From contig JAGBCY010000028.1 of NCBI GenBank assembly GCA_017937765.1, positions 38,416 through 102,415 on the forward strand: a stretch of DNA of 64,000 nt, read 5' to 3'. Below are positions 30,811 to 40,636 of this stretch, piece by piece (the stretch's first letter is position 1; the number at the start of each line of letters is the position of its first letter). This DNA is from Alistipes sp. GTDB lineage: Bacteria > Bacteroidota > Bacteroidia > Bacteroidales > Rikenellaceae. The notes under the pieces are model-generated. The model had not been told where the DNA came from and did no database searches. It was given only the letters and a program-made list of their open reading frames with translations. Made by a program: the position numbers and the translations under genes.

Positions 30811-30915
30811 ATGAAGCGAGCGACAAATAATCAGCCGATAGCGAGACTGCGAAGCAAGCAGTTGGTTGGCAATTGTCGACGTTTCAACGTTTTGGGAATC
30901 ACTGTTTTTAATTGA
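30811..30915 (+). CDS. Putative pyr operon leader peptide (34 aa)
   Basis: A 34-codon ORF begins MKRATNNQPIARLRSKQLVG and stops with TGA at 30913-30915. It starts right after the predicted transcription start and ends four bases before an intrinsic terminator hairpin. Its last codons include a T-rich stretch (CTGTTTTTAATTGA). This is the layout of the E. coli pyrBI leader, where a translating ribosome blocks the terminator when UTP is low and polymerase pauses. Peptide sequence is probably irrelevant. The function is inferred from position only. Confidence 0.6.
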   Translation: MKRATNNQPIARLRSKQLVGNCRRFNVLGITVFN

Positions 30916-30919
30916 TATT

Positions 30920-30946
30920 AGCGGCTCATTGGGCCGCTGTTTTTTT
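30920..30946 (+). terminator. Attenuator terminator directly before pyrC
   Basis: AGCGGC (30920-30925) and GCCGCT (30933-30938) form a 6-bp GC-rich stem with a 7-base loop. GTTTTTTT follows to 30946. The pyrC ATG is at 30951, so the terminator sits inside the operon leader and every pyr mRNA must read through it. This strongly suggests regulated attenuation. Confidence 0.85.
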
Positions 30947-30950
30947 ATAT

Positions 30951-32213
30951 ATGGCAAACGATAGAATAATCATCAAGGGAGGCATCGTCGTGGGTGCTGG
31001 GAAAGAGGATATTGCCATCGAAGGTGGCATCATTGCGGAGCGCGGAAATTGTATAGAGCCGAAGGCCGAGGATAGGGTTATCAACGCTGAAGGCCTGCTT
31101 GTAGCTCCTGCCTTTGTCGACGTACACGTACATCTGCGTGAGCCGGGCTACGGCTACAAGGAGCGCATTGCTACGGGTACTATGGCGGCGGCACACGGCG
31201 GATATACAACCGTATGCTCTATGCCCAACCTTAACCCCGTGCCCGACACCGTCGAGAATCTCAGGGTGCAGCAGGATATCATCGACCGTGACGCCAAGAT
31301 CGAGGTGCTACCCTATGCTGCAATAACCATTGGCCGCAAGGGCGAGGAGCTCGTCGACATCGCCGCACTGAAGGATGGCGTGTGCGCCTTCTCGGATGAT
31401 GGCAGTGGCGTTCAGGTGGATGGTATGATGGAGCGTGCTATGACCGAGGCGGTAAAGCACGACGCCCTTATCGCTGCCCACTGTGAGGTGGAGGAGCTGC
31501 TCAAGGGTGGTTATATCCACGATGGAGAGTATGCTGCAAAGAATGGCCACAAGGGCATCTGCTCGGAGAGTGAGTGGGAGCAGGTACGTCGCGACATCGA
31601 GATTGCCGAGCGCACGGGTTGCCGCTACCACGTATGTCACATCTCTACGAAGGAGACCGTTGCGCTCGTCCGCGAGGCTAAGGCTCGAGGTGTGAAGGTT
31701 ACGTGTGAGACTGGCCCCCACTACCTTATCTTCACGGATATGGATCTCGAGGAGGATGCTCGCTGGAAGATGAACCCACCGTTACGCTCGGCCGAGGATC
31801 GTGCGGCTCTTATCGAGGGCATCAAGGATGGCACGATAGATATGATTGCCACGGACCACGCACCCCATAGCCTCGAGGAGAAATCTAAGGGACTGAAGGA
31901 TAGCGCGATGGGCATTGTTGGTTTGGAGACTGCCTTCGCCGCGCTCAATACCCACTTGGTCAGCAAGGGTGTAATCAGCCTCGAGCGACTCGTGGAGCTT
32001 ATGAGCTACAATCCACGCAAGGTATTCCGCATCGAGGGAGGCATCGAGGTTGGAGATCGTGCCGATGTAGTCCTGCTCGATACCGAGAAACGATGGACGG
32101 TGGATAGCGATAAGTTCTACTCGATGGGTAAGGTGTCGATGTTCGTAGGTCGCGAGCTTAAGGGCGAGGTTGCGATGACCATCCACCGCGGAAATGTTGT
32201 ATACGAAAGATAG
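30951..32213 (+). CDS. pyrC: Dihydroorotase
   Basis: This 420-residue amidohydrolase cyclises carbamoyl aspartate to dihydroorotate. It has the metal-binding FVDVHVHLREPG near residue 55, AAHCEVEE, HVCHISTKE, and the catalytic Asp in MIATDHAPHS near residue 300. This is the long class I type. The ATG at 30951 follows a terminator T-run by only four bases; upstream in-frame codons read through the hairpin and are not used. It is the first structural gene of the pyr operon. Confidence 0.95.
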   Translation: MANDRIIIKGGIVVGAGKEDIAIEGGIIAERGNCIEPKAEDRVINAEGLLVAPAFVDVHVHLREPGYGYKERIATGTMAAAHGGYTTVCSMPNLNPVPDTVENLRVQQDIIDRDAKIEVLPYAAITIGRKGEELVDIAALKDGVCAFSDDGSGVQVDGMMERAMTEAVKHDALIAAHCEVEELLKGGYIHDGEYAAKNGHKGICSESEWEQVRRDIEIAERTGCRYHVCHISTKETVALVREAKARGVKVTCETGPHYLIFTDMDLEEDARWKMNPPLRSAEDRAALIEGIKDGTIDMIATDHAPHSLEEKSKGLKDSAMGIVGLETAFAALNTHLVSKGVISLERLVELMSYNPRKVFRIEGGIEVGDRADVVLLDTEKRWTVDSDKFYSMGKVSMFVGRELKGEVAMTIHRGNVVYER

Positions 32214-32240
32214 TAACAATAATAATAACAAACGAATTAG

Positions 32241-33329
32241 ATGAAACCTTTTACAAAGAAACTTGTACTCGAAAATGGTAAGGAGTTTCCGGGCTACGGC
32301 TTCGGCGCATCGCGCAATGCCGTATGCGAGTTGGTATTCAACACCTCGATGGTGGGATATCAGGAGATCGTTTCCGACCCGACGTACACCGATCAGATTG
32401 TAGTTATGACCTATCCGTTGGTCGGCAACTACGGATTTATGGACGAGGACTACGAGAGTAAGTTCCCCTCGATGGGCGGTATGGTTGTGCGCGAGTGCTG
32501 CGATGCACCGAGCAACTTCCGCTACACGAAGACCATCAACGAGACCTTCGAGGAGCTCGATATTCCCGGCATCAGCAACGTCGACACGCGAATGATCACG
32601 CGCATCATCCGCAACGAGGGCACGCAGAAGGCTGCCATCGTAGACATTGATATGAGCCACGAGGAGGCTATGGAGCTGATTAAGAATACGGAGTTGCGTC
32701 ACGATCAGGTTAAGAGCATCAGCTGCAAGAAGCGTTGGTTCTCGCGTACGCCCAACCACAAGTGGGATGTTGTGGCTATCGACTGCGGCATTAAGTATAG
32801 CTTCATCCGCCAGCTCAACGCCAAGGGTTGTAACGTGACGATCGTGCCGTTCGACTCTACGCCCGAGGAGATCTTAGCCTTCAACCCCGATGGTATCTTC
32901 ATCTCGAACGGTCCTGGCGATCCGGCAGATGTGGCAGTCGTTGGCGAGGCTATCGCAGCGTTGCGTGGTAAGTTGCCAATCTTTGGCGTCGACCTCGGCC
33001 ATCAGCTCATCGCTATGACATACGGTGCTAAGAACGACAGACTTAAGTTTGGCCACCACGGTGCTAACCACCCCGTTAAGTGCCTCGATACCGACAAGCT
33101 CGAGATCGTAACGCAGAACCACAGTTTCGTTGTCAACGAGGAGTCACTCGCCGACACAAAGCTGACGGTCACGCACCGAAACCTGCTGGATGGCACCATT
33201 GCCGGCGTGGAGTCTGTCGAGGATAAGGTATTCTCGATTCAGTATCAGCCCGACTGCACGCCCGAGGCCAGCAACACATATCTTTTCGATAAATTCATTA
33301 AACTGATGGAGGAGCAGAAAAATGCCTAA
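32241..33329 (+). CDS. carA: Carbamoyl-phosphate synthase small subunit with a lost glutaminase triad
   Basis: CarA normally hydrolyses glutamine and channels ammonia to CarB. The 362-residue protein has the usual N-terminal domain ([19 protein letters not shown]) and a class I amidotransferase domain with ISNGPGDP near residue 222. However, the nucleophile Cys of the GICLGHQ motif is Asp251 (FGVDLGHQ). The His and Glu of the usual HPE motif are Gln336 and Asp338 (IQYQPDC). All three triad residues are therefore replaced; the codons were checked. The protein probably supports CarB structurally while free ammonia is the nitrogen source. It overlaps carB by 8 bases. Confidence 0.93.
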
Positions 33330-36300
33330 GAGAACGGATATAAAGAAAGTAATGGTTATCGGCTCAGGCCCTATCGTCATTGGCCAGGCTGCCGAGTTTG
33401 ACTATGCAGGTACGCAGGCTTGTCTTGCACTTAAGGAGGAGGGCTATCAGGTTATCCTCGTTAACTCCAACCCTGCAACAATTATGACCGATACACATAT
33501 TGCCGACAAGGTATATATGGAGCCTCTCACGCTGGAGTACGTGGCAAAGATCATCCGCTATGAGCGTCCCGACGCTATCGTTCCGGGCCTTGGTGGTCAG
33601 ACAGGTCTTAACCTCGCCGTGCAGCTCGCCAAGAAGGGTATCCTCGAGGAGTGCGGCGTGGAGATTCTCGGTACGTCGTTCACATCTATCGAGGAGGCAG
33701 AGGATAGAGAGCTCTTCAAGGAGCTATGCATGCGTATCGGCGAGCCCGTTATCCCCTCGCGTATCACTAACTCAATCGAGGAGGGTGTGGCTGCTGCCGA
33801 GGAGATCGGCTACCCCGTAGTTCTGCGTCCCGCCTTCACACTCGGAGGTACGGGCGGTGGCTTTGCCGACAACGAGGAGGAGTTGCGCGACGTTATGCGT
33901 AACGCCCTCGCCCTCTCGCCTATCCATCAGGTACTCGTCGAGAAGAGTATCAAGGGCTATAAGGAGATCGAGTTCGAGGTTATGCGCGATAAAAACGATA
34001 CGGCGTTGGCCATCTGCTCGATGGAGAATGTCGACCCCGTAGGTATCCACACGGGTGACTCTATCGTTGTGGCACCGAGCCAGACCCTCGCACACAAGGA
34101 GTACTCTATGTTGCGCTCAAGCGCATTGAAGCTCATCCGTGCCCTAAAGATTGAGGGTGGTTGCAACGTGCAGTTCGCTCTCGACCCCTTGTCGTTCAAC
34201 TACTACATCATCGAGGTTAACCCCCGCGTCAGCCGCTCATCGGCCCTCGCTTCGAAGGCGAGTGGCTACCCCATTGCCCGCGTTACGGCAAAGGTTGCTG
34301 TGGGTATGACACTCGACGAGATACGCATTGCCAACACACCTGCGAGCTTCGAGCCCTCGTTGGACTACATCGTCACGAAGGTAGCACGCTTCCCGTTCGA
34401 TAAGTTCAGCGACGCATCGAACGAGCTCGGCACACAGATGAAGGCTACGGGCGAGGTAATGTCCGTAGGTCGCACCTTCGAGGAGGGTCTGTTGAAGGCC
34501 GTTCGCTCGTTGGAGACTGGCGTATGTCACGTGTACCACAAGAAGTTCGACAATATGTCGGTGGAGGGTATCCTCGCCTATATCCGCAAGGGTACCGACG
34601 ATCGCATCTACGCCATCGCCGAGCTTATCCGTCGCGGTGTCGATCTGTTGCACGTCTATGATAACACGAAGATCGACCTCTTCTTCCTCGAGAAGCTCAA
34701 GAATATCGTCGAGATGGAGCACGTCGTAGCAGAGGGTGTTCGCAATGCCGAAGTGTTGTACGACGCTAAGCGTATGGGCTTCAGCGATAAGTACATCGCC
34801 AAGCTCTGGGGTATGACCGAGAGCGAGGTGTTCCTCTTCCGCAAGGAGAACAACATCTTCCCCGTATATAAGATGATCGACACGTGCGCTGCGGAGTTTG
34901 ACTCAAAGGTGCCCTATCTCTACTCTACGTACGAGGAGGAGAACGAGTCTATCGTTACGAATAACAAGAAGATCGTGGTACTCGGCTCGGGTCCCATCCG
35001 TATCGGTCAGGGTGTTGAGTTCGACTACTCTACCGTGCACGCCATCTGGGCTATCCGTGAGGCTGGCTACGAGGCCATCATCATCAACAATAACCCCGAA
35101 ACCGTATCTACGGACTACTCTATCAGCGACAAGCTCTACTTCGAGCCACTCACGGTGGAGGATGTTATGAACGTCATCGAGCTCGAGAAGCCCACGGGTG
35201 TCGTTGTATCGCTCGGTGGTCAGACAGCCATCAACCTTGCCAAGCCGTTGGCCGACCTCGGTGTCGAGATTATCGGTACGGGTATCGAGGCTATCAACAA
35301 CGCTGAGGATAGAAAGTGCTTCGAGGCTATTATGCGCCGCGTAGGCATTCCGCAGCCCGAGGCTGAGGCTATAACCGATATCGAGCGTGGCGTGGCTGCG
35401 GCTAACCGTATCGGCTACCCCGTGCTGGTACGTCCGAGCTACGTGCTTGGTGGTCGCGCAATGCAGATCGTATCGAACGAGGAGGCTCTGCGCCACTACC
35501 TCAAGACCGCCGTGGAGCTCAACGAGGATCAGCCCGTGTTAGTTGATAAGTATATTATGGGTAAGGAGTTAGAGGTCGATGCCATCTGCGATGGTGAGGA
35601 TGTATTCATCCCCGGCATTATGGAGCACGTCGAGCGCACGGGTATCCACTCGGGCGACTCTATCAGCGTCTACCCCACTTTCAGCGTGAGCCAGAAGGTT
35701 AAGGATACGATCATTGACTACACCATCCGTCTCGGTAAGGAGATCGGCATCATCGGTCTCTACAACATCCAGTTCATCGCCGACGATAAGGATATGGTCT
35801 ACGTCATCGAGGTTAACCCGCGCTCGTCGCGTACCGTTCCCTTCCTCTCGAAGGCCACGGGTATGCCTATGCCCAAGATCGCTACTAACGTTATGTTGGG
35901 TAAGTCGCTCAAGGCTCAGGGCGTGGATAAGGTTATCGCCGAGGAGAAGAAACGTTGGTACGTCAAGACTCCTGCATTCTCCTTCGCCAAGATTCGCGGC
36001 GTCGACTCATACCTCTCGCCCGAGATGAAGTCTACGGGTGAGGCTATCGGCTACGACACGTCGCTTCGCCGTGCACTCTACAAGTCGCTGCAATCGTCGG
36101 GTATGACCATTGCCAACTACGGCACCATCTTCGTATCTATCGCCGATGCCGACAAGCCACGTGCTCTGCCGCTCATCCGCCGCTTCTACGAGCTCGGCTT
36201 CAACATCGAGGCCACGGGCGGCACGGCTAAGTACTTGCGCGAGAACGGCATCCGCACTCGTATGCTCAAGAAGCTCAGCGAGGGCTCTACCGAGATCTTC

Positions 36301-36504
36301 GAATCGATACGTAAGGGTCACGTAAACTATGTTATTAACACCATCGATATCAACCAGCACAGCGCACGTCTCGACGGCTACGACATCCGCCGCTGCGCCG
36401 TGGAGAACAACGTAACGATCTTCACCGCACTTGAGACCGTGAGCGTTCTGCTCGATGTATTGGAGGAGATCACGCTGGGCGTATCGACAATTGATGCTGA
36501 ATAA
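33322..36504 (+). CDS. carB: Carbamoyl-phosphate synthase large subunit
   Basis: The 1060-residue subunit makes carbamoyl phosphate from bicarbonate, ammonia and two ATP. It shows the duplicated ATP-grasp layout: first half from [20 protein letters not shown] with [10 protein letters not shown]; second half from [19 protein letters not shown] with [13 protein letters not shown]-terminal MGS-like allosteric domain contains [15 protein letters not shown]. Both synthetase sites look complete ([16 protein letters not shown] and [16 protein letters not shown]). It is coupled to carA (8-base overlap) and to pyrK (TAATG overlap). Its partner CarA appears glutaminase-dead. Confidence 0.97.
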
Positions 36505-37244
36505 TGTACAAGAAGGGAATATACACAGTTCTTAGTAACGAGCCTCTAACACCTGCGGTTTACCGTATGGTGTTGGAGGGCGATACTCAGTACATCACAC
36601 GCTCGGGACAGTTCATCAACATCGAGCTTGAGGGTAAGTTCCTTCGCCGCCCTATCTCGGTGGCAGACTACGATGCAACGACCATAACTATTATATATAA
36701 GGTAGTTGGTCGCGGTACGGAACAGATGCGCGAGATGAAAGCTGGCAAGCAGCTCGATATCCTCACTGGCCTCGGTAACGGTTTCTCGACCGATAATGAC
36801 GCTAAGCGTCCACTGCTTGTAGGTGGTGGCGTAGGTGTACCTCCGATGTATAACCTCTGCAAGCGACTCTTGGCCGAGGGCAAGCATCCGACGGTGGTCG
36901 TAGGCTTTAACACGCGCGAGGAGGTATTCTACACCGAGGAGTTCAAGGCTTTGGGCGTGGATGTATATTGCTCGACGGCCGATGGTTCTATGGGCACCAA
37001 GGGCTTCGTTACGGATGCAATCCGCGAGGAGGGCATCGAGTTCGACTACCTCTATACCTGTGGTCCGCTTCCTATGCTCAAGGCTCTGTACGACGCCACG
37101 GAGGTGGAAGCAGAGTTCAGCTTCGAGGAGCGTATGGGCTGCGGCTTTGGCGGCTGTATGGGCTGCACGTGCAAGACGAAGTACGGATACAAGCGTATTT
37201 GCAAGGAGGGTCCCGTTCTTAAACGCGATGAGATTATATGGTAA
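36504..37244 (+). CDS. pyrK: Dihydroorotate dehydrogenase electron transfer subunit
   Basis: PyrK passes electrons from PyrD to NAD+ through FAD and a 2Fe-2S cluster. The 246-residue protein has an FAD domain (GKFLRRPISVADYD), the NAD-binding LLVGGGVGVPPMYNLCKRLL near residue 110, and the cluster cysteines in CGFGGCMGCTCKTKYGYKRIC near the end. It overlaps carB by one base and pyrD by seven. With pyrD it defines the class 1B, NAD-linked enzyme, which fits an anaerobe. Confidence 0.95.
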   Translation: MYKKGIYTVLSNEPLTPAVYRMVLEGDTQYITRSGQFINIELEGKFLRRPISVADYDATTITIIYKVVGRGTEQMREMKAGKQLDILTGLGNGFSTDNDAKRPLLVGGGVGVPPMYNLCKRLLAEGKHPTVVVGFNTREEVFYTEEFKALGVDVYCSTADGSMGTKGFVTDAIREEGIEFDYLYTCGPLPMLKALYDATEVEAEFSFEERMGCGFGGCMGCTCKTKYGYKRICKEGPVLKRDEIIW

Positions 37245-38158
37245 AGCACTATGACACAACGGTTGAGCTTTCGGGAGTAAAGCTCGACAACCCCATAATT
37301 CCCGCATCGGGAACCTTTGGCTTTGGCCGCGAGTTTGCGGAGTTCTACAACCTCGACTGCCTCGGTGCTATATCTATCAAGGGCACCACACGCGATGCTC
37401 GCTTCGGTAACCCCACGCCACGCATTGCGGAGTGTACCGCAGGCCTTATCAACTCGGTGGGTCTGCAGAACCCCGGAATCGACAAGGTCATCGCCGAGGA
37501 GTTACCTGCCTTACGCCAGATATTCCACAAGCCTATCGTCGCTAATATCAGCGGCTTCTCGCTCGATGAGTATGAGGAGTGCTGTGCGAAGATTGATAAG
37601 GAGGAGCAGGTGGAGATCATCGAGGTGAACGTCTCGTGCCCCAACGTGCACAACGGCGGTATGAGTTTCGGCACGCAGCCCGAGGCTGCCGCTGAGGTAA
37701 CACGCCGTGTGAAGGCCGTGACGAAGAAGCCCGTATATATCAAGCTCAGCCCCAACGTTACGGATATCGTGGCTATCGCTCGCGCCTGCGAGGAGGCTGG
37801 TGCCGATGGTATATGCTTGATCAACACGCTGCTTGGTATGCGTATCGACACTATGCGTCGCCGTCCCGTTATCGCAAATAAGATGGGTGGTTTCTCGGGC
37901 GACGCTATCTTCCCCGTTGCAGTGCGTATGGTCTATCAGGTAGCCAATGCCTGCAAGATTCCCGTTATGGGCTGCGGTGGCGTGAGCTCAGCATCGGACG
38001 TTATCGAGATGATGATGGCGGGTGCTACTGCCGTGCAGGTGGGTGCCGCCAACCTTAAGAACCCCTATGCCGCAAAGGAGATCGTCGAGGCCCTGCCTCG
38101 GGAGATGGAGCGTCTCGGCATCGAGCGTCTCAGCGACATCATCGGCATTGTTAAGTAG
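37238..38158 (+). CDS. pyrD: Dihydroorotate dehydrogenase, class 1B catalytic subunit
   Basis: The 306-residue FMN-containing TIM barrel oxidises dihydroorotate to orotate. It contains NPIIPASGTFGFGREF at the N-terminus, the catalytic Cys in VNVSCPNVHNGG near residue 130, and KLSPNVTDI. The FMN phosphate site is GCGGVSSASDVIEMMMAGA near residue 247. The Cys base and the adjacent pyrK make it class 1B. It is cytoplasmic and soluble. Confidence 0.96.
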   Translation: MVKHYDTTVELSGVKLDNPIIPASGTFGFGREFAEFYNLDCLGAISIKGTTRDARFGNPTPRIAECTAGLINSVGLQNPGIDKVIAEELPALRQIFHKPIVANISGFSLDEYEECCAKIDKEEQVEIIEVNVSCPNVHNGGMSFGTQPEAAAEVTRRVKAVTKKPVYIKLSPNVTDIVAIARACEEAGADGICLINTLLGMRIDTMRRRPVIANKMGGFSGDAIFPVAVRMVYQVANACKIPVMGCGGVSSASDVIEMMMAGATAVQVGAANLKNPYAAKEIVEALPREMERLGIERLSDIIGIVK

Positions 38159-38185
38159 AATATAATAATTTAAACACAAGATATT

Positions 38186-38887
38186 ATGAGTAAGCGCGAT
38201 GTAATTATTGCTTGCGACTTTAGCAGCAAGGAGCAGACCTTGAACTTCCTCGATAAGTTCACCGGCCGTAAGCCCTTTGTTAAGATTGGTATGGAGCTCT
38301 TCTATGCCGAGGGTCCCGAGATTGTACGTACGATCAAGGCTCGTGGCCACCGTATCTTCCTTGACCTCAAGCTCCACGACATTCCCAACACCGTGAAGAA
38401 GGCGATGTCGGTACTACGTAACCTCGACGTCGATATGACCAACGTTCACGCAGCGGGTACTATGGATATGATGAAGGCTGCAATCGAGGGCCTCACACGC
38501 GAGGATGGCACACGCCCCTTGCTTATAGCCGTTACGCAGCTCACCTCTACATCGGAGGAGCGTATGCAGAAGGAGTTACTCATCGGTGCCTCGATCAACG
38601 ACACCATTGTTAAGTATGCCGAGAATGCTAAGGCTGCCGGCTTGGATGGTGTTGTGTGCTCGCCACTGGAGGCAGCTATGGTAAAGGATGCGTGCGGCAA
38701 GGAGTTTATGACCGTAACGCCGGGTGTTCGCTTCGCGGATGGCGATGTTGGCGATCAGGTGCGTGTGACTACGCCCGAGCGAGCTAAGGAGATTGGCTCT
38801 GACTTCATTGTCGTTGGTCGTCCTATCACTGCGGCCGATGATCCCGTAGCTGCATATGAGCGTTGTATGCGCGAGTTTGCCGAATAA
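38186..38887 (+). CDS. pyrF: Orotidine 5'-phosphate decarboxylase
   Basis: PyrF makes UMP from OMP. The 233-residue barrel begins [20 protein letters not shown]. It contains [10 protein letters not shown] and the catalytic Asp-x-Lys-x-x-Asp in [13 protein letters not shown] near residue 55. The phosphate site is TPGVRF and [12 protein letters not shown]. This is the short, common bacterial type. Starts 28 bases after pyrD. Confidence 0.96.
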
Positions 38888-38915
38888 TTATTAACCAACT
38901 AAAACATAGAATATT

Positions 38916-39545
38916 ATGGAAAAGAAGATAGCAAAAGACCTTTTGTCAATTGGCGCAGTATTCCTTCGCCCCGAGCAGCCCTTCACTTGGGCAAGTGGCA
39001 TCAAGAGCCCCATCTATTGCGACAACCGCCTTACGCTCACAGCTCCCGAGGTGCGTAACCACGTGGAGGAGGGCCTCGCAGAGCTTATCCGCAACCACTA
39101 CCCCGACGTGGAGGTTTTGATGGGTACATCTACCGCAGGTATCGCTCACGCTGCCATCACCGCAACAATCCTCGACCTGCCTATGGGTTACGTACGCTCA
39201 GGCTCGAAGGACCACGGCCGCGGCAACCAGATCGAGGGTAAGTTAGAGAAGGGACAGAAGGTTGTCGTTGTAGAGGACCTTATCTCTACTGCAGGTAGCT
39301 GCATCGAGGTTGTCGAGGCATTGCGAGCTGCTGGTGCCGACGTTTTGGGTATCGTGAGCATCTTTACTTACGGTATGCAGAAGGGCTTGGACCGCTTGGC
39401 AGCTGCCGAGGCTAAGAACTACTCACTCTCGAACCTCGACGCTCTGGTAGAGGTTGCAGCCGAGGAGGGATACATCAAGGCCGAGGACAAGGAGCGCATC
39501 CTTAAGTTCAGAAACAACCCCTCGGACGAGAGCTGGATTAAGTAA
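38916..39545 (+). CDS. pyrE: Orotate phosphoribosyltransferase
   Basis: PyrE joins orotate and PRPP to give OMP. The 209-residue protein shows [16 protein letters not shown] at the N-terminus, the flexible catalytic loop [17 protein letters not shown] near residue 90, and the PRPP motif [13 protein letters not shown] near residue 117. It lies between pyrF (28-base gap) and pyrB (23-base gap). Confidence 0.96.
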
Positions 39546-39568
39546 TTATTAGAAATAGGTATAGAGAG

Positions 39569-40636
39569 ATGAAGCATTTGATTGACCCCACAGACCTCTC
39601 CGTAAGCGAGATTGCGGAGATCATAGCTTTAGCCGAGGATATCATAGCCAACCGCGCAAGGTATAGCGAGGTGTGCCGCGGCAAGAAGCTCGCAACGTTG
39701 TTCTACGAGCCGAGCACACGTACACGTCTCAGCTTTACATCGGCAATGATGGAGCTTGGCGGTAATGTCATTGGCTTTGCCGATGCTAAGAGTTCGTCGG
39801 TATCAAAGGGCGAGACCGTGCAGGATACCGTAAGGGTCATCAACTGCTTTGCCGACATTATCGCTATGCGCCACAAGGTCGAGGGAGCACCCCTTGCCGC
39901 AACGGAGGTGTCGCGCACGCCCATCATCAACGCTGGCGATGGCTCACACAGCCACCCCACGCAGACGATGACCGACCTGCTCACCATCAAGCGCGAGCTC
40001 GGCACGCTCAACAACCTAACAATCGGTCTTGTTGGCGACCTCAAGTATGGCCGTACGGTGCACTCGCTCATCAAGGCGATGACGCGCTACGAGAACACCA
40101 AGTTCATACTTATCTCACCTCCGGAGTTGGCTCTGCCCGACTATATCAAGCACGACGTCTGCGACCGCTATGGTGTGGAGTACCGCGAGTCGGCTGATAT
40201 CGAGAGCGTCATCGGCGACGTTGATGTTCTATATATGACCCGCGTGCAGCAAGAGCGTTTCACCGATTTGGAGGAGTACGAGCGCGTGAAGGATTGCTTC
40301 GTTCTGGATGCCGCCAAGATGCGCGGAGCTAAGGAGCGTATGGCCGTGCTACACCCGCTACCACGCGTCAACGAGATTGCGATTGACGTGGATGCCGACC
40401 CACGTGCGGCATACTTCCGCCAGGTGGAAAATGGCAAGTTTGTGCGAATGGCACTTATCCTTAAGTTGCTCGAGTGGCAAGATGATGCGTCGCGCACGTT
40501 CGACCACGGCGGCGAGGCTATGGCGTGCAAGTGCCCCAACCCGCTGTGTATCTCGAACCTCGAGCCCGTGCGTCCACGCTTCGAACGAGTGGAGGATATC
40601 GTGCGCTGCGTCTACTGCGAGTGGGAAGCACGATAA
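39569..40636 (+). CDS. pyrB: Aspartate carbamoyltransferase with a C-terminal PyrI-type zinc tail
   Basis: PyrB condenses carbamoyl phosphate and aspartate. Residues 1 to about 310 form the catalytic chain: [54 protein letters not shown]. The last 38 residues form an appended zinc ribbon: [13 protein letters not shown], then Cys-x2-Cys at 347 and 350. It closely resembles the zinc domain of the regulatory subunit PyrI, with ligands C322, C327, C347 and C350. The nucleotide-binding half of PyrI is absent and no pyrI gene follows. The tail may stabilise trimers without allosteric control. Last gene of the operon. Confidence 0.95.

Follow-up and report, generated by a model that had tools for sequence, protein, structure and literature searches.

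How does a bacterial carbamoyl-phosphate synthase (CPS) obtain its nitrogen when its small subunit, CarA, lacks every residue of the glutaminase triad? The question is raised by a carA gene in the pyrimidine operon of an Alistipes sp., located in the 64,000-nucleotide stretch of DNA analysed here (the window). Ammonia-dependent CPS is known from the vertebrate urea cycle and is unexpected in bacteria. Escherichia coli CPS uses glutamine by way of Cys269 and His353, and passages of a review name glutamine as the preferred donor of all bacterial CPSases (PMC6245113). In vertebrate CPS1 the ancestral glutaminase domain is kept but inactive, the Cys of the human enzyme having become Ser294, and ammonia is taken from the environment; the ancestral tunnel of human CPS1 is reported to be blocked, and a different route for ammonia has been suggested (passages of PMC4655335). 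Searches of open-licence papers listed no instance of a natural glutaminase-less bacterial CarA. A sequence-only reading of the window had proposed that the entire triad of this CarA is lost and that the enzyme is an ammonia-dependent CPS.

The carA gene and its operon

The window carA is a 362-codon reading frame without interruption. In alignments with the E. coli references used for residue numbering (PDB chains and MG1655 carA), its Asp251, Gln336 and Asp338 (codons GAC, CAG and GAC) fall on Cys269, His353 and Glu355, which confirms the loss of the triad; the state is written below as D/Q/D, and an intact triad as C/H/E. The motifs read GVDLGHQ and QYQPD, with the surrounding letters G-V-x-L-G-H-Q and Q-Y-x-P conserved. 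The gene had been described as intact, in frame and part of a pyr operon with its flanking motifs conserved, and this description stands, the 362-residue frame being open and the operon order retained.

By profile, CarA is the small subunit of a glutamine-hydrolysing CPS (TIGR01368, 398.7 bits over residues 7–357, cut-off 307.35), and it is paired with carB in the operon as in CPS II; the Cys–His–Glu triad of that class is replaced by D/Q/D. It is likewise a class-I glutamine amidotransferase (GATase) by PF00117 (141.4 bits) and by fold (Foldseek matches to class-I GATases), with GVDLG where the class has the Cys of its GxCxG elbow and QPD where it has the HPE motif. Since CarA scores above the curated TIGR01368 cut-off, automatic annotation would misname it, and the label 'glutamine-hydrolyzing' would mislead.

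Table 1. Features of the pyr operon and of CarA in the window
Feature	Position	Strand	Basis
pyrC-like dihydroorotase, upstream in same operon as carA	30912..32213	+	ORF, synteny; named by recognition, not HMM
carA, CPS small subunit, glutaminase triad lost	32241..33329	+	362 aa; ORF; above cut-off for TIGR01368, PF00988 and PF00117
Class-I GATase (glutaminase) domain of CarA, residues 179–354, active site replaced, fold kept (predicted)	32775..33302	+	PF00117, 141.4 bits
Codon GAC, Asp251; E. coli equivalent nucleophile Cys269	32991..32993	+	Alignment with E. coli CarA
Codon CAG, Gln336; E. coli equivalent catalytic His353	33246..33248	+	Alignment with E. coli CarA
Codon GAC, Asp338; E. coli equivalent catalytic Glu355	33252..33254	+	Alignment with E. 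coli CarA
Remodelled CarA loop, aligned with E. coli Gly359-Pro360-His361-Asp362, one residue shorter	33264..33272	+	Gly359 column a gap in 36/36 clade members
carB, CPS large subunit, predicted ammonia-using synthetase	33322..36504	+	1060 aa; NF003671, 1517.7 bits
pyrK-like electron-transfer subunit	36504..37244	+	ORF, synteny; named by recognition
pyrD-like dihydroorotate dehydrogenase	37238..38158	+	ORF, synteny; named by recognition
pyrF-like OMP decarboxylase	38186..38887	+	ORF, synteny where locus long enough; named by recognition
pyrE-like orotate phosphoribosyltransferase	38916..39545	+	ORF, synteny where locus long enough; named by recognition
pyrB-like aspartate carbamoyltransferase, Cys-rich PyrI-like C-terminal tail	39569..40636	+	ORF, synteny where locus long enough; named by recognition

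The gene order in the window is pyrC-carA-carB-pyrK-pyrD-pyrF-pyrE-pyrB, with HMM naming for CarA and CarB only, and its first four members keep their order in 76/76 triad-less and 35/35 intact loci (one locus per genome, each longer than 9 kb). The CarA of the Alistipes pyr operon (30912–40636 in the window, with the pyrK-like gene) is 59–62% identical to that of metagenome-assembled (MAG) contigs labelled Oscillospiraceae and Clostridia (L268, L306) but shares only 31–41% identity with the CarA of most genera elsewhere in its family, which suggests that the operon has been transferred. Open frames of 1448–1471 residues at carA in four genomes from three other families of the order (G417, G459, G269 and G358) suggest natural CarA–CarB fusions.

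Across 120 Alistipes CarB sequences aligned with that of E. coli, no triad-less group shows a change at the residues examined in the nucleotide sites and the tunnel gate; the lone exception among the 120 is a gap in an intact-CarA genome. Most of the residue roles used here are background assignments, and that of the tunnel gate follows passages of PMC4655335. Recurrent differences between the CarB of triad-less and of intact Alistipes lie at E. coli 253–266, 342–348 and 534–538 and may mark a changed CarA interface or only phylogeny; adaptation of CarB was dropped as a reading of them, the intact group being phylogenetically clustered.

An AlphaFold model of the window CarA (input alignment of 34 sequences; pLDDT 88.7, pTM 0.89) gives TM scores of 0.93 to E. 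coli CarA and 0.85–0.88 to human CPS1, and the fold is predicted to be retained. Its Foldseek matches include E. coli structures titled C269S, G359F and C248D.

Recurrence of triad loss and constraint on CarA

The protein was used to search 180 Alistipes genomes (151 + 29), mostly draft assemblies. A usable carA was obtained from 161, the best-scoring copy being taken from each; 19 gave none or a fragment and are uncounted. Five genomes carry a second copy, G021 has an incomplete additional one and G172 a 64-residue piece, none of which enters the 161. The Cys is absent in 105 of the 161 sequences (the carA of G137 ends before the His/Glu motif and was counted by its Gly); in the 56 others Cys, His and Glu are all invariant. 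The 105 comprise 30 D/Q/D, 25 S/H/E, 11 G/N/E, 7 G/H/E, 6 S/Y/E and other states, with S, G, A, N, D or E at the Cys site, Y, N, Q, D or E at the His site, and D, A, T, S, N or a deletion at the Glu site. The clade of the window (n = 36) contains 30 D/Q/D, three G/Q/D and one each of D/Q/A, D/Q/deleted and G/H/N, so that residue 251 is D in 32 and G in four, 336 is Q in 35 and H in one, and 338 is D in 33 and A, N or deleted in one each. With Asp and Gly exchanged at 251 and 338 deletable, this does not look like a new catalytic centre, and no new catalytic set is maintained at the replaced sites. The check proposed in the sequence-only reading, whether relatives share the state, comes out in its favour, given the 36-genome clade and the recurrence in the genus. 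D/Q/D is not a one-off, however: the loss is repeated and stepwise. A loose nucleotide pattern for non-Cys elbows was noisy (98/180 genomes, many matches outside carA) and served as a lead only.

Among 80 named public loci, which were chosen by similarity to the window CarA and therefore show where triad-less genes come from and not the habitat of intact ones, 74 are triad-less and six C/H/E (one isolate is twice in the set). The titles of the 74 name a ruminant host together with cecum, colon or rectum in 61 cases, 'SIG' MAGs in ten and other sources in three. The family sample covered 120 genomes of 22 genera, from which 25 CarA were read; 20 of these were hand-picked with weak matches over-represented, so that the 13 C/H/E and 12 other sequences give no rate. 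Six of the 12 are of the Alistipes type and come from a single neighbouring genus (S/H/E once, G/H/E five times); the other six are of an older type, 31–41% identical, from two genera (three C/Q/D and one each of C/Q/E, G/H/E and R/N/E). These older-type triad losses (L354, L355, L357, L358, L361 and L362) lie outside the Alistipes-type operon, and the Cys is kept in four of them. For the other families of the order, 198 genomes gave 161 with any match, and 49 of about 100 long CarA matches were read (the 29 best and 20 of the weakest); all 49 are C/H/E.

On a gene tree of CarA and CarB with the triad regions removed (161 rows), at least five switches between Cys and non-Cys are needed. The triad-less units are the clade of the window (36 rows), which has the intact G153, G069 and G080 as its sisters with support of 99–100; two clades of 29 genomes each, one with S/H/E and G/H/E, the other with G/N/E and S/H/E; a ten-genome G/D/A and G/D/T clade nested among intact rows; and G140. 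A CarB-only FastTree of 123 rows gives six changes, and a single clade of all triad-less rows is rejected (121 well-filled rows, 80 of them triad-less; 525 log-likelihood units worse, p-AU 1.2e-07). The triad would thus have been lost about four or five times; as G140 is poorly placed and falls with the G/D/A group in a tree of GMP synthase, four is the cautious count.

The dN/dS of the GATase domain is 0.10 in the clade of the window, 0.075–0.21 across triad-less groups and 0.176 in the intact group, values computed within groups from pairs that share branches and hence are non-independent (3 to 777 pairs per group). On the same basis CarB gives 0.039–0.080 in triad-less groups versus 0.118 in the intact group, and the ratio of GATase-domain dN to that of CarB is 2.1–5.3 versus 1.8. 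The domain is thus under purifying selection despite the lost triad, and its raised relative dN is best described as partial relaxation, which fits the loss of one of its functions. The loop at E. coli 359–362, which we take to line the ammonia tunnel near the glutaminase site, is shortened and replaced in two triad-less clades (36/36 in that of the window, 10/10 in the G/D/A clade); every one of the 56 intact Alistipes CarA has its G, P and D (G-P-x-D). The title of the E. coli G359F structure points the same way as to a tunnel role.

Second carA copies and nitrogen supply

No second carA was found in the window's own assembly (1.92 Mb, 85.7% complete) at E-values up to 10, the only other match being the GATase domain of GMP synthase; the sequence-only reading had named an intact second copy as an outcome that would overturn it, and within this assembly none was found. 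A second full carA occurs in the clade of the window in G074 alone (1/36), a genome that is 8% contaminated. This copy (L202) lies in a purB-purA-carA-carB cluster, possibly from a contaminating relative, and its CarA is G/I/E, another triad loss. The partial extra copy of G021 is D/Q/D too. G050, G072, G116 and G148, all of one G/H/E group, have next to a carB a second carA whose triad is intact and which belongs to the older Rikenellaceae type (L188–L191); glutamine use is therefore possible, and may persist, in that clade.

Three PF00117 proteins occur in the window's own assembly: CarA, CTP synthase (PyrG) and GMP synthase (GuaA). The latter two are intact C/H/E, so that glutamine is still used there and CarA alone would have switched. 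The same genome has a glutamine-synthetase-like gene of 500 amino acids, nearest to type I but below the NCBIfam cut-off.

GuaA was sought in 30 genomes, three of those read having intact CarA. A short GuaA (435-residue type) is present in 24 of the 30, all with triad-less CarA, and was found in every genome tested of five triad-less groups (9/9, 7/7, 4/4, 3/3 and 1/1). It keeps 110–112 of about 186 GATase residues, without the Cys or the HPE motif (about 40% of the domain is gone), and its synthetase domain is complete in those scanned. Members of this family (L460–L483) are 81–99% identical to one another and 41–47% to the long form; such a tight family would have spread by descent or transfer and not by repeated truncation. 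Two short GuaA scanned with NCBIfam are still labelled 'glutamine-hydrolyzing'. The synthetase part of GMP synthase can use external ammonia by itself, according to passages of PMC10526850. Full-length C/H/E GuaA occurs in the three intact-CarA genomes, in G148 (whose CarA is G/H/E and which has a second, intact carA) and in one member of the clade of the window, G056; in G040, the other tested member of that clade, no GuaA was found.

PyrG was found in 22 of 30 triad-less-CarA genomes, with C/H/E in 14 (including 9/9 found in the clade of the window) and a broken triad in eight (two each of C/N/E, G/N/E and G/H/E and one each of S/H/E and N/H/E; L444, L445, L447, L448 and L450–L453). There was no CTP synthase match in the remaining eight (G057, G047, G070, G049, G030, G020, G149 and G044), whose completeness is 80–98%; they include 4/4 tested genomes of the G/N/E group. 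An ammonium transporter (AmtB) scores over the cut-off in 4/180 Alistipes, three with intact CarA and one without a usable carA, and in the triad-less G036 there is a weak AmtB-like fragment below the cut-off; the family is present in 14/14 control genomes. The GuaA and PyrG glutaminase losses and the near-absence of AmtB in relatives point to ammonia as donor, with the link of GuaA and PyrG to CarA loss uncontrolled (three intact-CarA genomes for GuaA, none for PyrG).

Two further candidates were set aside. Ammonia-dependent asparagine synthetase (AsnA) occurs in 52/180 genomes (38/105 triad-less, 6/56 intact, eight without usable carA; 0/36 in the clade of the window), and as a general correlate it fails tree correction, with five independent pairs only and a median p of 0.5. 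Loss of glutamine synthetase was rejected as a cause, PF00120 matches being present in 161/180 genomes (160 over cut-off). By a split into types that was made from E-values and match numbers with five sequences checked, the clade of the window has one type-III-like enzyme, 26 GSI-like and nine genomes with none, and the other triad-less groups are mostly type-III-like.

Alternative explanations and a proposed route for ammonia

Pure decay would mean that pyrimidines come from salvage or food, that the pathway is disappearing and that CarA was the first component to degenerate. Relative to CarB, the GATase domain is indeed faster-evolving in the triad-less groups, and the states are graded from loss of the Cys only to loss of all three residues. 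However, dN/dS in the clade of the window is about 0.1 for CarA and about 0.04 for CarB, the CarB sites are unchanged, the operon order is held in every triad-less locus over 9 kb, and the losses cover whole clades with reading frames open; we consider decay decidedly unlikely. The sequence-only reading had also judged it unlikely, which is right for the fold, CarB and the operon, but the glutaminase site itself did decay. Glutamine might still be used if another glutaminase fed CarB with ammonia in trans or if the altered site hydrolysed it by other chemistry. Residues G241, G243, N311 and H312 of E. coli CarA, presumably glutamine-binding, are indeed kept in 35–36 of the 36 clade members; against this, the sites at 251, 336 and 338 vary as described above with no fixed catalytic set, and a search for class-I enzymes (PF00117) in the window's own assembly gave only GuaA and PyrG besides CarA. 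Continued glutamine use is accordingly unlikely in our judgement.

The 14% of the assembly that is missing could hold a second, intact carAB, the window copy having another role, and the intact second carA with adjacent carB in G050, G072, G116 and G148 of another group is a precedent. Set against it, the only second full carA among the 36 clade members is that of the contaminated G074, beside purA and itself G/I/E, and the extra copy in G021 is partial and D/Q/D as well; a hidden carAB seems very improbable. The data are from MAGs, in which a sequencing or assembly error can be suspected, but the same or equivalent substitutions recur in 36 assemblies at 80–100% identity and in named public contigs. 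An error restricted to one assembly is thereby ruled out, and error in general is a negligible explanation.

With these alternatives weighed, it is likely, from the comparative evidence, that CarA has lost its glutaminase and that CarAB is an ammonia-dependent CPS in which CarA is kept as a scaffold. This is what the sequence-only reading had predicted; it remains the best reading and is strengthened by the GuaA and PyrG glutaminase losses and near-absent AmtB in relatives. Free NH3, assumed to be plentiful in the hindgut (a literature search found no paper on the ammonia level there), would cross the membrane without a transporter and would enter the CarAB complex directly, bypassing the glutaminase, perhaps close to the loop that is remodelled around E. 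coli G359–D362. In CarB it would react with carboxyphosphate, and the carbamate would then be phosphorylated as usual. CarA may be retained because CarB depends on it structurally or allosterically. According to passages of PMC6245113, the E. coli CPS requires very high ammonia, so CarB here would need a better ammonia affinity. Relatives would be further along, with a GMP synthase without the catalytic glutaminase part and a CTP synthase losing its triad, and their nucleotide nitrogen probably comes from ammonia more generally.

Among known systems, CPS1 resembles the window enzyme in having a glutaminase domain without its nucleophile and of similar predicted fold. CPS1 is a single mitochondrial chain that needs N-acetylglutamate and serves the urea cycle, whereas the window encodes two bacterial subunits in overlapping frames (32241–33329 and 33322–36504) within an operon for pyrimidine synthesis, and none of the three triad residues is left. 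The triad-less CarAB is most likely a functional parallel of CPS1 with an independent origin. E. coli CarAB (CPS II) shares the two subunits, the domains, the CarB sites and the predicted CarA fold, but the equivalents of Cys269 and His353 are absent from the window CarA. Glutaminase-altered mutants of E. coli CarA (C269S, G359F and C248D) are reported to have lost the use of glutamine and to be left with that of ammonia, and engineered blockage of the tunnel reportedly has this same result; the CarA mutants are laboratory-made, whereas the Alistipes state is natural, repeated and maintained. The carbamate-kinase-like enzyme of Pyrococcus reportedly uses ammonia too. It is similar in that carbamoyl phosphate is made in a prokaryote without a glutaminase subunit and differs in having another fold that is not CarAB; this mode of synthesis is named in passages of PMC6245113 and PMC6022934.

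The triad-less CarA is thus a natural, repeated candidate exception to glutamine-using bacterial CPS, one that annotation models still label 'glutamine-hydrolyzing'. If the ammonia reading is true, a natural ammonia-only CarAB would be seen here for the first time, and these Alistipes would be the first lineage with the glutaminase parts of several amidotransferases dismantled together, as far as the searches of open-licence papers reach. Several independent replicates are available with intermediates (Cys only, Cys and His, all three, loop shortened) for a transition, CPS III to CPS I, that is otherwise described for animals in passages of PMC6022934; they would make it testable why a dead domain persists and how ammonia gets in. 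Taken together, the repeated CarA triad loss, the loss of glutaminase parts in GuaA and PyrG and the near-absence of AmtB make it moderately likely that a ruminant-hindgut Alistipes lineage is abandoning glutamine for nucleotides, with the genome of the window at a CarA-only stage. They suggest a habitat in which ammonia is high and steady enough for core biosynthesis to be reshaped.
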